A stretch of DNA of 64,000 nucleotides, from positions 1 through 64,000 of the forward strand of contig WOYV01000119.1 of NCBI GenBank assembly GCA_011620585.1, given 5' to 3'. Numbering within the stretch: position 1 is the stretch's first letter; every line of letters begins with the position of its first letter. A program made the translations under genes and the position numbers. This document shows positions 51,659-56,999 of the stretch, in pieces. Under the pieces are notes generated by a model that made no database searches, was not told the origin of the DNA, and saw only the letters and a list, made by a program, of their open reading frames with translations. The DNA comes from Draconibacterium sp. GTDB lineage: Bacteria; Bacteroidota; Bacteroidia; Bacteroidales; Prolixibacteraceae.

Positions 51659-51707
51659 CACTAAATAATATGAAAGCAAATCAATAAACACAGCCAACTT
51701 GAATATT

Positions 51708-53240
51708 GTGAAACAAATACTCCTCATCTTTTCCATTGGTTTTACACTTGGATCAACAGCTCAACCTTTTCGTTATCGGGACTTACTTTTTGATGCGGGC
51801 GATACCTTCAAAAATGTTGAATATGCGCAGGCAGAATGGCTTAATAATCCTATTGAAATTCTTTCTGACTATAATATCCATGAAGGTGAAACGATAACTG
51901 AAACGCGGGTTTTGGAAATGGATATTTTTGTACCCCGAAACGATACCCTTACCAAAAGACCTGCCATCATTTTTTCGCACAGTGGGGCATTTTTATTGGG
52001 ATCGAGGCAAAACGACGACATGATTGCATTTTGCGGCTCATTTGCCAGAAGAGGTTATGTAACTGCCACTATTGATTACCGATTAGGCATGGGGGCTGAT
52101 GTTGCACGCTTTCTGGGAATAATTGTAGGACTTAATGTTAATGAAAAAAATGCACAAAGAGCAGGTTACCGCGCGGTACAGGACGGCCGGGCTGCCATCC
52201 GCTTTTTGAAACAAAATGCAGAAATATATGGTATCGATTCCTCTAAAATATTTATGGTTGGAAGCAGTGCAGGTGCCATTCAGGCACTATCTGTTTTGTA
52301 CCTCGACCACGAAAATGAGATTCCCGGGTCAGCCCGGGCAGAACCTGAACTTGGCGCACTGGATGCGGTTGGCCTTGCTGGACCTTCATCGAAACCAACC
52401 GCCGTTGTTTCGATGTGGGGCGCAACCTGGAATACCGAACAAATTGAAGACAATACAACGCCGCTGTTTCTGATTCATGGAGAAGACGATAACATTGTTC
52501 CGTTCAAAAAAGGAATTCCGTTGGAAGGGACCATCCCGGATAATCCTTTTGTACATTTCAACATGCCTGAAACCTACGGCAGCTTTTGCATCGATACGGC
52601 ATTAGCCAATAAAGATATCCCGCATGAAACCTATTTTGTGAAAGGAAAAGGACATGAATTCTATGGTGTAAATACGGGTATGTTTCCTCCCGAAGGACCA
52701 AATCAATACTGGGATACAATCCATCAGAAAATAAGTAGCTTTTTATTTGAACAAATTAAGCCTGAAGTACAATTTGAAGTAGAGCTTGATGAGAACAAGA
52801 TGGCCATAATAAATAAATCGTCGGAAAACAATTACGTTTTATGGAACTTTGGCGACGGGGAAACCAGTGAAGAATGGCAACCCGAACACATTTTTAATAC
52901 AAAGGGCGAATACACGGTTACATTAAAAGTGTGCAACGATATCTTGGCTTGCGACACTTCGTCACAAATCGTTGAAATTAGTCAGATTACTAATTCTTCA
53001 TATGTCTCGACCAACAACATTTCAGTTTTCCCCAATCCAGTTTCCGACATATTATATATTCGTGGAGCCCCAAATTTATTTGATGCTTACCTGTTTGACC
53101 TAACCGGACAGGTTCAATATCAAAGAGAGAACCTTTCACAGAATCAGCTCGATGTTAGTTTACTGGCGCCCGGAATATATATTCTAAAAATAAATTCAGG
53201 CAACACTTCCCTCATTCAGAAGATCAGCATAATAAACTAA
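51708..53240 (+). CDS. Secreted esterase with PKD domain and T9SS tail
   Basis: The product of about 510 residues has a signal peptide (KQILLIFSIGFTLGSTAQPF), an alpha/beta-hydrolase domain, a PKD-like beta-sandwich (YVLWNFGDGETSEEWQPEHIF) and a type IX secretion C-terminal domain (VFPNPVSDILYIRG...GIYILKINSGNTSLIQKI). The catalytic serine is in VGSSAGAIQ, the aspartate in HGEDDNIVP and the histidine in GKGHEFYG. It is likely a surface-anchored carboxylesterase. The track's start is TTG; the GTG three codons later gives a better signal peptide and is used here. No ATG is available. Confidence 0.85.
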   Translation: MKQILLIFSIGFTLGSTAQPFRYRDLLFDAGDTFKNVEYAQAEWLNNPIEILSDYNIHEGETITETRVLEMDIFVPRNDTLTKRPAIIFSHSGAFLLGSRQNDDMIAFCGSFARRGYVTATIDYRLGMGADVARFLGIIVGLNVNEKNAQRAGYRAVQDGRAAIRFLKQNAEIYGIDSSKIFMVGSSAGAIQALSVLYLDHENEIPGSARAEPELGALDAVGLAGPSSKPTAVVSMWGATWNTEQIEDNTTPLFLIHGEDDNIVPFKKGIPLEGTIPDNPFVHFNMPETYGSFCIDTALANKDIPHETYFVKGKGHEFYGVNTGMFPPEGPNQYWDTIHQKISSFLFEQIKPEVQFEVELDENKMAIINKSSENNYVLWNFGDGETSEEWQPEHIFNTKGEYTVTLKVCNDILACDTSSQIVEISQITNSSYVSTNNISVFPNPVSDILYIRGAPNLFDAYLFDLTGQVQYQRENLSQNQLDVSLLAPGIYILKINSGNTSLIQKISIIN

Positions 53241-53340
53241 ACGCTTAGTACAAAAGGGCTATCATTAATGTGAATTGGATAAATCTCCAATTTGCAACAG
53301 AAAAAGCAAAGGAATTTTGAAATTAAAAATTTATTAATTT

Positions 53341-53357
53341 ACTTTGCGTTTCAAAGT
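53341..53357. promoter_or_regulatory. Palindrome ACTTTG-N5-CAAAGT, operator copy 1
   Basis: ACTTTG (53341-53346), CGTTT, CAAAGT (53352-53357) lies 11 bases before the membrane-protein ATG. The left half overlaps a near-consensus -7 box (TTACTTTG). An almost identical site stands before creD. Confidence 0.6.
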
Positions 53358-53368
53358 ACTTTTAAAAA

Positions 53369-53989
53369 ATGAAAACAACCGAGAATTATTTGTCAGAGAT
53401 CAGCGAGATCAGAAAAATGATGCAGGAATCGAGCCGTTTCCTCACCTTAAGCGGTTTATCAGGAATTCTGGTAGGAATTTATGCATTGGCAGGAGCAGTT
53501 ATGGCTGACAGTTTGCTGTTTACATCCCATATTTTTAGCTGGTTAAAAGGGAATAACGTTGTGGCCGATCTATCTGTATTGGCGGGTATTATTCTCTCTT
53601 TATCGATAATAACGATTGTGATACTCACCTCGATTCGGGTAAAAAAGGCTGGCAAAAAGTTCTGGAATATCGGTTCGCGACAAATGTTGCTCAACCTTTC
53701 AGTTCCTTTGCTTAGTGGAGGCTTGTTAATTATAGTGTTCGTATTTAAGGAATTTTATGAGATTGTAATACCGGGAACTTTGGTATTTTATGGCCTCTCG
53801 CTGGTTAACGCAGCCAAATTTACCCGAAACGAAATTTTCTATCTCGGACTATTTCAACTCATACTCGGAATTGTCGCCGCCATTCTGCCATCGATCGGCA
53901 TTCTGCTTTGGGCCCTTGGATTTGGCCTTCTGCATATTATTTATGGCGTATTGATGTATTTCAGGTACGAATATTCTCCAAAGGGTTAA
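53369..53989 (+). CDS. Four- to six-helix membrane protein of the CreD module
   Basis: The 206-residue protein has a cytoplasmic N-terminus (TTENYLSEISEIRKMMQES) and about six predicted membrane helices, with none of the polar motifs of a transporter or enzyme. I do not recognise the family. It ends 4 bases before a GTG-started winged-helix regulator gene, so the two are translationally linked, and a palindrome near its start recurs before creD. Such small membrane proteins often accompany regulator/CreD pairs in Bacteroidota. It may sense the membrane signal for the regulator, but that is only inferred from position. Confidence 0.7.
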   Translation: MKTTENYLSEISEIRKMMQESSRFLTLSGLSGILVGIYALAGAVMADSLLFTSHIFSWLKGNNVVADLSVLAGIILSLSIITIVILTSIRVKKAGKKFWNIGSRQMLLNLSVPLLSGGLLIIVFVFKEFYEIVIPGTLVFYGLSLVNAAKFTRNEIFYLGLFQLILGIVAAILPSIGILLWALGFGLLHIIYGVLMYFRYEYSPKG

Positions 53990-53993
53990 CGCC

Positions 53994-54290
53994 GTGAAAA
54001 ACAGTTTTCAAAATCTAAATAAAGCATTCGACAACAAAATCCGGCTGGGGATCATGTCGGTGTTGTCGGTAAATCCAAAAGTTTCTTTTAACGATTTAAA
54101 GGAGATGCTGGACGTTACCGACGGAAATCTGGCCAGCCACCTGAAATCGCTCGAGAACGCCGGATACATAAATGTTATAAAATCATTTATTGACCGAAAA
54201 CCTAATACCCGGTACGAGATCACTAATGAAGGCTCAACCGCTTTCGACAGTCATTTAAAGGCCCTGGAAGAAATATTAAAACAGCTTTAA
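53994..54290 (+). CDS. Winged-helix transcriptional regulator
   Basis: The 98-residue protein is a single winged helix-turn-helix domain: KIRLGIMSVLSVNPKVSFNDLKEMLDVTDGNLASHLKSLENAGYINV, followed by the wing NTRYEITNEG. It resembles small ArsR/MarR-like regulators that act without a ligand domain. It starts with GTG. Palindromes ACTTTG-N5-CAAAGT on both sides, before the gene pair and before creD, are its likely binding sites. Confidence 0.85.
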   Translation: MKNSFQNLNKAFDNKIRLGIMSVLSVNPKVSFNDLKEMLDVTDGNLASHLKSLENAGYINVIKSFIDRKPNTRYEITNEGSTAFDSHLKALEEILKQL

Positions 54291-54305
54291 TTTTTTTATC
54301 TATTT

Positions 54306-54322
54306 ACTTTGAATTTCAAAGT
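54306..54322. promoter_or_regulatory. Palindrome ACTTTG-N5-CAAAGT, operator copy 2
   Basis: ACTTTG (54306-54311), AATTT, CAAAGT (54317-54322), 26 bases before the creD ATG. It shares TTTACTTTG-nn-TTTCAAAGT with copy 1, a match of 17 out of 19 positions. Confidence 0.6.
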
Positions 54323-54348
54323 GCGCAACAACACTAAATAAAAGAAAT

Positions 54349-55671
54349 ATGGAAACAAAAAATTCGTTAAACGACAAACAAAAATCAATCAACTGGCAAC
54401 TTACACTCAAGGTGTTTATAATCGGGATTATTGCTATCGCTTTACTTGTGCCCAAATTTATGATCCTGTCGTTAATCGACGACCGTCAGGCAACTGCCGA
54501 ACTCACAACATTGGAAGTCATGCAAAAGTGGTCGCTGTCGCAAACCGTGCGCGGACCGGTTCTGTCGGTTCCATACATCGAACGTACTTTCGACACCGAA
54601 GGGAAAGAAGTTAAAGAAGAAACCCGTGAGTTTTATGTGCTTCCAAAAACTCTAAAAGTTAATGGAGAGATCCTTCCTCAGGAACGAAAACGAAGTATTT
54701 ATGAAACCGTGGTTTACGAGTCAGAACTAGAGATATCTGGTCAATTCGACATTTCAGAGCTCAGTGATCTGAAAATCGCGGCCAAGGATATTTTATGGGA
54801 AAAATCGAAACTACTGGTTTCCATCAGCGATTTGCGTGGAATTAACGACAAGATATCATTAAAATGGAACCAGGCCGTATTTGCATTTTCGCCGGGAATG
54901 GAAAATCCGCTGATTGGCACCAACGGCATTTCTCTCAATCTACCTGAACTTTCGCTGCAAGGTTTTCCGGGCAATTTTAGTTTCAAACTTCCCCTGAAAG
55001 GTTCTGAATCACTGAATTTTGCTCCGCTTGGCGAAACGACCGAAATTGCGCTTCAATCAAGTTGGGAAGATCCGGGGTTCGATGGTAATTTCTTACCGGC
55101 AGATTACCAGGTTGATAAAGATGGTTTTACGGCAAACTGGAAAATACTAAACTTTAACCGCAACTTTCCACAGCAATGGAAAAACAACGAATACCGAGTT
55201 ACCGATGCCGATTTTGGAGTTAGATTGGTTACAGTAGCCGATCATTACCAAAAAAGTTCACGTTCGGCAAAATATGCAATCCTTGTTATCCTGTTTGTAT
55301 TTCTCTCCTTTTTCCTGACCGAGGTTATTACCAAAAACAGGGTTCATCCATTCCAGTACATTTTAGTTGGTTTTTCGGTACTGATATTTTATCTATTGCT
55401 ATTGTCGATTTCCGAACAACTCGGGTTCAACCTGGCCTACCTTATTTCGGCGCTGGCCGTTTTGCTTATGGTTTTGTTGTACTCGCGCAGTTTCCTTCAC
55501 AACTGGACCAATGCAATCATCCAAACTTTGATATTGACATTTTCATATGGTTTCATTTTTGTGCTGATGCAGCTCGAAACCTATGCACTTATGGCAGGAA
55601 GCATCGGACTGTTTGTTGTTCTGGCACTCACCATGTTCTTCACACGAAAAATTAACTGGTACAACGACTAA
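54349..55671 (+). CDS. creD: CreD-type inner-membrane protein
   Basis: The 440-residue protein has an N-terminal helix (LKVFIIGIIAIALLVPKFMIL), a periplasmic domain of about 270 residues with ETREFYVLPKTLKVNGEI and WGIRGL-like variants, and a C-terminal bundle of about five helices (FLTEVITKNRVHPFQYILVG). That order fits CreD, an envelope integrity protein of unknown mechanism. The conserved RVHPFQY motif is present. It is set apart from the regulator by 58 bases that hold the second palindrome. Confidence 0.93.
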   Translation: METKNSLNDKQKSINWQLTLKVFIIGIIAIALLVPKFMILSLIDDRQATAELTTLEVMQKWSLSQTVRGPVLSVPYIERTFDTEGKEVKEETREFYVLPKTLKVNGEILPQERKRSIYETVVYESELEISGQFDISELSDLKIAAKDILWEKSKLLVSISDLRGINDKISLKWNQAVFAFSPGMENPLIGTNGISLNLPELSLQGFPGNFSFKLPLKGSESLNFAPLGETTEIALQSSWEDPGFDGNFLPADYQVDKDGFTANWKILNFNRNFPQQWKNNEYRVTDADFGVRLVTVADHYQKSSRSAKYAILVILFVFLSFFLTEVITKNRVHPFQYILVGFSVLIFYLLLLSISEQLGFNLAYLISALAVLLMVLLYSRSFLHNWTNAIIQTLILTFSYGFIFVLMQLETYALMAGSIGLFVVLALTMFFTRKINWYND

Positions 55672-55854: not shown

Positions 55855-55906
55855 CACGTCCAAAAAATTGGATAAAAATATTTAACCATTTAAAAATTAG
55901 ATGATT

Positions 55907-56263
55907 ATGTTGAATCAGTATGAAACCGTTTTCATTTTTACTCCCGTTTTATCTGAGCCACAGGTAAAGGAAGCGGTAAAAAAATTCAGGGACATCATCA
56001 CCGAACATGGAGGTGAGATGATCCACGAAGAAGATTGGGGTATGAAAAAACTGGCTTACCCAATCCAGAAAAAGTCAACTGGCTTTTACCATTTATTTGA
56101 GTTCAAAGCCGATCCTGCATTTATAACCAAGTTTGAAACAGATTCTCGCCGTGACGAACGAATCATGCGTTTCATGACTGTTAAACTCGACAAGTATGCT
56201 GCTGCATACAGCGAGAAGAGAAGAAAACTTCAGAAAGAAAAAACAGAAAAAAAGGAGGATTAA
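55907..56263 (+). CDS. rpsF: 30S ribosomal protein bS6
   Basis: The 118-residue protein begins [24 protein letters not shown] and carries [24 protein letters not shown] and [10 protein letters not shown], all standard for bS6, with a lysine/glutamate-rich tail. bS6 pairs with bS18 on the platform of the 30S subunit. The track's ATG two codons earlier (MIMLNQYE) is a possible start. It is first in the usual rpsF-rpsR-rplI operon and has no Shine-Dalgarno, unlike the next two genes. Confidence 0.96.
56252..56258 (+). promoter_or_regulatory. Strong Shine-Dalgarno of rpsR
   Basis: AAGGAGG lies 8 bases before the rpsR ATG, inside the end of rpsF. Strong sites of this kind are uncommon in Bacteroidota and are otherwise absent from most genes here. 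Confidence 0.75.
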
Positions 56264-56266
56264 ATC

Positions 56267-56536
56267 ATGGCACAGAGTTCAAGCGAAATCAGATACCTGA
56301 CCCCGCCGTCAGTTGAGATTAAAAAGAAAAAATATTGCCGTTTCAAGAAAAACGGAATCAAATATGTAGACTACAAAGACCCGGAATTCCTGAAAAAATT
56401 CCTGAACGAACAAGGTAAAATTTTACCTCGCCGTATTACCGGTACTTCGCTGAAATACCAACGCAAAGTTGGCCAGGCCATTAAGCGTGCCCGCCAGATT
56501 GCTTTACTGCCGTTTGTAGCTGACATGTTGAAATAA
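56267..56536 (+). CDS. rpsR: 30S ribosomal protein bS18
   Basis: The 89-residue basic protein shows [26 protein letters not shown] and the RNA-binding core [32 protein letters not shown]. bS18 binds with bS6 beside the 3' end of 16S rRNA. Translation is probably boosted by the preceding AAGGAGG. It starts 3 bases after the rpsF stop. Confidence 0.96.
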
Positions 56537-56538
56537 AA

Positions 56539-56545
56539 AAGGAGG
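56539..56545 (+). promoter_or_regulatory. Strong Shine-Dalgarno of rplI
   Basis: AAGGAGG lies 7 bases before the rplI ATG, the same sequence as before rpsR. Confidence 0.75.
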
Positions 56546-56552
56546 ACTTGAA

Positions 56553-56999
56553 ATGGAAATTATATTGTTACAGGACGTTGAACGTTTAGGAAGTAAGGAT
56601 GACATTGTTAATGTGAAAGACGGCTACGGTCGTAACTTCCTAATTCCACAAAAAAAAGCAATTGTTGCTACGTCTTCTGCCAAGAAAATTCTGGCTGAAA
56701 ACATTAAACAACGTGCACACAAAGAGGCTAAGCTGAAAGAAGAAGCCACCAGGATTGCAGAACAGATTGTTGCCAAGAAAATTACGATTGGCGCAAAAAC
56801 AAGCTCTTCAGGCAAGATTTTTGGTTCGGTAAACACTATTCAGTTGGCCGAAGCTATCAACAAAAAAGGATTCGAAATCGACCGCAAGCAGATTACAATT
56901 CCTGAAGACAGTATCAAAGAAATAGGCACACACAAAGCAATCATCAAACTGCACAAAGCAGTTGTGGTTGAGATTGAATTTGAAGTTATCGCTGAATAA
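56553..56999 (+). CDS. rplI: 50S ribosomal protein bL9
   Basis: The 148-residue protein has the N-terminal rRNA-binding domain (MEIILLQDVERLGSKDDIVNVKDGYGRNFLIPQ), the long central helix and the C-terminal domain (GKIFGSVNTIQLAEAI, DRKQITIPEDSIKEIGTH) typical of bL9. It closes the operon and is followed by a terminator. Confidence 0.96.
   Translation: MEIILLQDVERLGSKDDIVNVKDGYGRNFLIPQKKAIVATSSAKKILAENIKQRAHKEAKLKEEATRIAEQIVAKKITIGAKTSSSGKIFGSVNTIQLAEAINKKGFEIDRKQITIPEDSIKEIGTHKAIIKLHKAVVVEIEFEVIAE

Follow-up and report, generated by a model that had tools for sequence, protein, structure and literature searches.

CreD is known from a proteobacterial two-component regulon, and in Draconibacterium sp. 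its gene stands beside a different, linked regulator, which raises the question of what controls creD in this organism and how far such control extends beyond it. The DNA analyzed was a 64,000-nucleotide stretch (assembly GCA_011620585.1, contig WOYV01000119.1, positions 1 to 64,000 of the forward strand; hereafter the window), in which mem, hth and creD are consecutive genes, all on the + strand:

53369..53989, + strand: mem, an unnamed 206-aa membrane protein with an ATG start and an N-terminal helix followed by six more
53994..54290, + strand: hth, a 98-aa single-domain winged-helix regulator of the HTH_34 family with a GTG start (PF13601, E=2.6e-29)
54349..55671, + strand: creD, a 440-aa CreD inner-membrane protein, the putative controlled gene (PF06123, E=4.7e-151; NCBIfam NF008712, 1.2e-145)

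The hth product scored 101.7 bits against the HTH_34 profile (cut-off 27) and covered profile positions 1-80 of 80, while the creD product scored 503.9 bits against PF06123 (cut-off 23) and 485.7 bits against NF008712 (cut-off 275). The mem product matched nothing in Pfam, and no NCBIfam family above cut-off. Within the window creD is flanked by mem-hth upstream and by ribosomal genes downstream, with no adjoining creBC two-component genes. The downstream region (55901-56999) holds three + strand ORFs of 120, 89 and 148 aa, which by eye are rpsF-, rpsR- and rplI-like, and upstream of the module (51699-53240) is the gene of a BD-FAE type esterase that carries a PKD domain and, at its C-terminus, a type IX secretion signal.

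An earlier note on this DNA had pointed to twin ACTTTG-N5-CAAAGT palindromes, one before the first gene and one before creD, alike at 17 of 19 positions and with a single-domain winged-helix gene between them. These observations were borne out. Both palindromes are exact, ending 11 bases before the mem ATG (53369) and 26 bases before the creD ATG (54349), and positions 53339-53357 and 54304-54322 agree at 17/19 over TTACTTTG..CAAAGT, with the 98-aa HTH_34 gene at 53994-54290 in between. The predicted sites are as follows:

53341..53357, no strand assigned: predicted operator 1, exact ACTTTG-N5-CAAAGT (ACTTTGCGTTTCAAAGT)
53358..53362, + strand: third half-site ACTTT of operator 1, kept across the phylum
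54306..54322, no strand assigned: predicted operator 2, exact ACTTTG-N5-CAAAGT (ACTTTGAATTTCAAAGT), its third half-site absent in the Draconibacterium genome

A genome-wide pattern search found only these two exact copies in 3.94 Mb, both at mem-hth-creD. When one mismatch was allowed, 9 sites were found in the whole genome against 24 for the reversed pattern, and sites outside the module are therefore taken as background; no further regulon members stood above background in the Draconibacterium genome at this stringency.

Conservation was assessed first among 61 related genomes, each searched separately for creD, the palindrome, hth and mem. By our own count, the 32 relatives with mem contained 64 exact palindromes, of which 58 were at the mem-hth cassette, and 22 occurrences of the mirror pattern; the 29 relatives without mem held 8 exact palindromes in all. 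Close relatives with the three-gene module carried the palindrome in both places, rarely in one. The hth profile was then searched in 396 Bacteroidota genomes, where close orthologues (E<=2.5e-37) were found in 119, separated by a clear gap from the next match (4.6e-32). Among 121 unlike mem-hth loci, at least 9 of the 10 arm bases were present at the first site, before mem, in 103/114 loci (81 perfect) and at the second site, after hth, in 108/121 (97 perfect), and it was this search before orthologous genes that the earlier note had set as the test that could refute it; its reading passed this test. Related species in this set are non-independent draws, the loci coming from many families with orthologues averaging 57% identity. 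Control windows from the same loci reached at least 9/10 in 17 of 1542 cases (1.1%), none perfect, and mirror arms did so at 2/114 first and 2/121 second sites. Seven cassettes had a weak or absent second site.

One explanation for the twin sites is chance similarity of two AT-rich promoters, and two-mismatch matches in the window do occur at chance level. Both places are, however, conserved in more than 100 unlike loci with mirror controls near zero, which leaves this explanation a practically negligible probability; a chance palindrome is ruled out by the mirror and window controls.

It is the regulator, not creD, that the palindrome accompanies. Two genomes that have no creD (G038 and G046) keep mem-hth with both palindromes; behind the second of these comes either a DUF4153 membrane protein or an XrtN-system VIT protein with an exosortase after it, and palindromes were also seen to flank mem-hth where another gene stands in place of creD. 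Conversely, where creD has no linked hth, 34 of 37 unlike genes lack a site that reaches 9/10 arm bases. One of the three exceptions is G132, a natural example of an unlinked target, in which creD keeps the palindrome although 16 kb of the same contig separate it from the hth cassette. In another genome (G109) the CreD profile matched creD in two separate places, which a frameshift or a sequencing error might explain.

Alignment of the sites gave the consensus TnACTTTGnAtTtCAAAGTACTTTtaA, with a third half-site 3' of the palindrome. The usual form is ACTTTG-N5-CAAAGT-A-CTTT, that is, three half-sites, which is larger than the palindrome first reported; over 102 first sites the A of the third half-site is conserved at 85% and CTTT at 98-99%. 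The exact 22-mer ACTTTGN5CAAAGTACTTT occurs in 81/396 genomes and its mirror control in 0. An HTH homologue (E<=1e-18) is present in 205/396 genomes overall and in all 81 with the 22-mer, so that the 22-mer is found in 81/205 genomes with such a homologue vs 0/191 without. Tallied by us against the close orthologue, it is found in 76/119 genomes with the orthologue vs 5/277 without, and 43 of the 119 genomes with an orthologous regulator have no exact 22-mer.

The operator assignment is thus strongly supported by comparative genomics, and both palindromes are very probably binding sites of the HTH_34 regulator coded between them. It might be argued that a different, unlinked factor reads the palindrome and that HTH_34 merely travels along, as the poor sites at some orthologous cassettes and the missing close orthologue in 5/81 of the 22-mer genomes would allow. 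Against this, sites track hth and not creD, an HTH homologue accompanies the 22-mer in 81/81 genomes, and in three of the five genomes without a close orthologue (G200, G324 and G406) the 22-mer lies beside an HTH_34 gene that is more distantly related. The operator occupies both places of a sister cassette, composed of a membrane protein and an HTH_34 gene, in G200 and G406. We consider an unlinked reader improbable and retain the linked HTH_34 protein as the likely one. The sister cassette with the same three-half-site operator was seen at L251, L252 and L253 (G200, G324 and G406), and at L252 and L253 the operator is followed by a gene for a TPR-like protein and one like those of TonB-dependent receptors.

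The promoter context of the two sites differs. The Bacteroidota promoter consensus is TTTG / TAnnTTTG (PMC7366714), and the relevant elements in the window are:

53316..53319, + strand: TTTG, a -33-like element separated by 19 nt from the -7-like box, at the commonest TTTG offset in 102 aligned first sites
53339..53346, + strand: TTACTTTG, a -7-like box that shares bases with the left arm of operator 1, with 5/6 fixed letters of TAnnTTTG
54291..54298, + strand: T-tract TTTTTTTA, whose distance to operator 2 downstream is fixed

The earlier note had placed a near -7 box under the left half of each site. At site 1 this held: TTTG-N19-TtACTTTG is conserved in orthologous loci and overlaps the site, with the -7-like box in 102 first sites showing T(-3) at 90%, A(-1) at 95% and CTTTG at 100%. 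At site 2 the upstream context is instead a conserved T-tract, and the -7-box promoter reading is therefore weaker there. TTT was found at -12..-10 in 105/108 second sites, as a T-tract or as an A-tract ending in TTTA, and the spacing of 9 nt before the operator holds even where the second site is 100-250 nt from hth. Scans for sigma-70-type promoters and terminators returned no more than shuffles; they rely on an E. coli consensus that is not suited to this phylum.

Since operator 1 lies over a -7-like box, a regulator bound there should repress its own operon. A conserved operator at the regulator's own promoter, overlapping the -7-like box, is the arrangement of an autoregulated operon and was found at 103/114 loci. 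At site 2 the T-tract replaces TTTG, and the regulator could therefore act as an activator there. A regulator that binds these operators and activates at site 2, perhaps generally, would accord with the fixed T-tract 9 nt before the operator and with the lack of a TTTG-N19-(-7 box), which means that the core promoter need not be covered. We judge activation unlikely, given that operator 1 covers a conserved -7-like box in the promoter that serves the regulator itself, the usual autorepressor geometry, and that the structural neighbours of the protein are mostly MarR/ArsR-type regulators, which are largely repressors. From the sequences we infer direct binding and repression, a reading that is conditional above all at site 2.

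The palindromes could also act as RNA hairpins (attenuator or terminator) and not as protein sites, and the window copies do fold, if weakly (-4.5 and -5.9 kcal/mol; z -1.3 and -2.2). The arm letters are, however, fixed, and a hairpin is rejected because departures from them disrupt pairing in 35 cells and preserve it in only 4. Site 1 moreover lies over the promoter and not in the leader, the third half-site outside the stem is conserved and the stem has no following T-run. Such a role is highly improbable, and we continue with the palindromes as protein-binding operators.

The AlphaFold2 model of the HTH_34 protein (pLDDT 94.5) is a compact winged helix, its best fold match being 1UB9 (PH1061; TM 0.87) and its structural neighbours mostly MarR/ArsR-type regulators. 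The protein consists of one winged-helix domain without a ligand domain. The recognition-helix residues TDGNLASH are almost invariant, and cysteine is nearly missing (mean 0.04 Cys per protein in 91 homologues). A similarity of the regulator to CRISPR-associated Csa3 was weak, was probably confined to the winged-helix part and was set aside. The model of mem (pLDDT 90.9) has 7 helices, one N-terminal plus six, and the conserved motifs are GxxGxxxG, FYG and GFGxxHIxYG. No PDB sequence match or PDB fold match was obtained for mem, and 19/100 of its homologues match DUF308 weakly. A remotely homologous second membrane protein (hhalign 94.7%) pairs with the more distant HTH_34 in several genomes.

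The specificity of the operator, with zero mirror matches in 396 genomes, suffices to pick genes by the DNA pattern alone. Genes after the second operator in the cassette encode CreD, DUF4153, Coq4-like, DUF1361, DUF2809, a metallophosphoesterase and unnamed membrane proteins, and Peptidase_C92 and DUF218 genes also occur within cassettes. In five flavobacterial cassettes Peptidase_C92 (YiiX-like), DUF218, Coq4-like and DUF1361 recur together with CreD. A further 37 stretches were examined, most of them around unlinked 22-mers, and the unlinked operators mostly stand before families found inside cassettes in other genomes: CreD (two loci), DUF4153 (one), Peptidase_C92 (six), Coq4-like (two), XrtN-VIT (one), DUF2809 (one) and radical SAM (one), as well as unnamed membrane families of ~100-190 aa and ~414 aa. 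Two Prolixibacteraceae loci have a distal site upstream of the gene for a 96-aa membrane protein, whose family, judged by sequence resemblance, is found within the cassettes of other genomes (L164, L205). At three loci (L225, L227, L249) no sensible gene followed the site. The XrtN-system VIT-domain protein lies directly behind the operator in L144 and L239, with exosortase N too in L144, and this position links the protein-sorting system to the same putative regulator. The interpretation in the earlier note was thus supported, with a correction: mem-hth is constant with sites flanking it, but the unit is not closed, as different genes can take the controlled position and part of the targets lie away from the cassette.

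Taken together, we consider it likely that an HTH_34 autorepressor, paired with a membrane protein that may be its signal source, governs inner-membrane and envelope genes, linked or unlinked, across Bacteroidota. The HTH_34 protein probably binds ACTTTG-N5-CAAAGT as a dimer, usually followed by the third half-site ACTTT. On operator 1, over the mem-hth -7 box, it would repress its own operon, and operator 2, at the creD promoter, would put CreD under the same regulator; upon a disturbance of the inner membrane, the membrane protein may hold or release the regulator. The membrane protein is proposed as the signal source because of its recurrent pairing with a regulator that has no ligand domain and almost no cysteine, and we suggest tentatively, at slightly less than an even chance, that the mem product senses or conveys the signal, from the gene pairing and the regulator's lack of a sensing domain. 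We regard as evenly balanced the wider proposal of a Bacteroidota-wide membrane-surveillance regulon, in which the six-helix membrane protein would pass an inner-membrane signal directly to a one-domain HTH_34 repressor acting through a three-half-site operator on a swappable set, linked or unlinked, of CreD, DUF4153, Peptidase_C92, Coq4-like, DUF1361, the XrtN exosortase system and unnamed families. Roughly twelve families of membrane and envelope proteins, several of them without a known function, would be grouped into one probable response, and the relation of DUF4153, Coq4-like proteins or XrtN to CreD becomes experimentally addressable.

In the literature searched, with subscription papers and regulon databases excepted, this regulator, its operator and its regulon are undescribed in Bacteroidota, and the same appears to hold for a set of membrane-protein genes under common control throughout the phylum, with CreD as just one member. 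Among HTH_34 proteins, PH1061 of Pyrococcus horikoshii (1UB9) shares fold and domain with the regulator, and the same searches returned no operator or regulon for 1UB9 or HTH_34 regulators. Like MarR/ArsR-type local autorepressors, the regulator is a small winged helix with a palindrome over its own promoter, but it lacks metal- or redox-ligand cysteines, has a membrane-protein partner and is associated with three half-sites at linked and unlinked genes. It falls outside the metal/redox-sensing ArsR/MarR group, with 31.1 bits against NF033788 (cut-off 55) and the mean of 0.04 Cys.

In Proteobacteria CreBC controls CreD via TTCAC-N6-TTCAC, and CreD supports envelope integrity in Stenotrophomonas (PMC4689548). 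The point in common with the CreBC/CreD regulon of E. coli, Pseudomonas, Aeromonas and Stenotrophomonas is the expression control of the inner-membrane protein CreD, whereas CreBC is a two-component system and the Draconibacterium module has a one-domain HTH_34 protein and a different operator. The cre-tag had no match at <=1 mismatch anywhere in the window, and CreBC control through it at creD was rejected. In Bacillus subtilis, SdpI holds the autorepressor SdpR at the membrane upon signal (PMC1626106), and the module here resembles it in that a two-gene operon pairs the gene of a small, probable autorepressor with that of a multi-pass membrane protein. The HTH_34 protein lies outside the SdpR family (NF033789, 18.2 bits against a cut-off of 100) and the mem product, which has no Pfam match or NCBIfam match above cut-off, outside the curated SdpI family; the order of mem-hth is reversed and other envelope genes are also under putative control. 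By analogy, we infer that SdpR/SdpI is the best working model for mem-hth.
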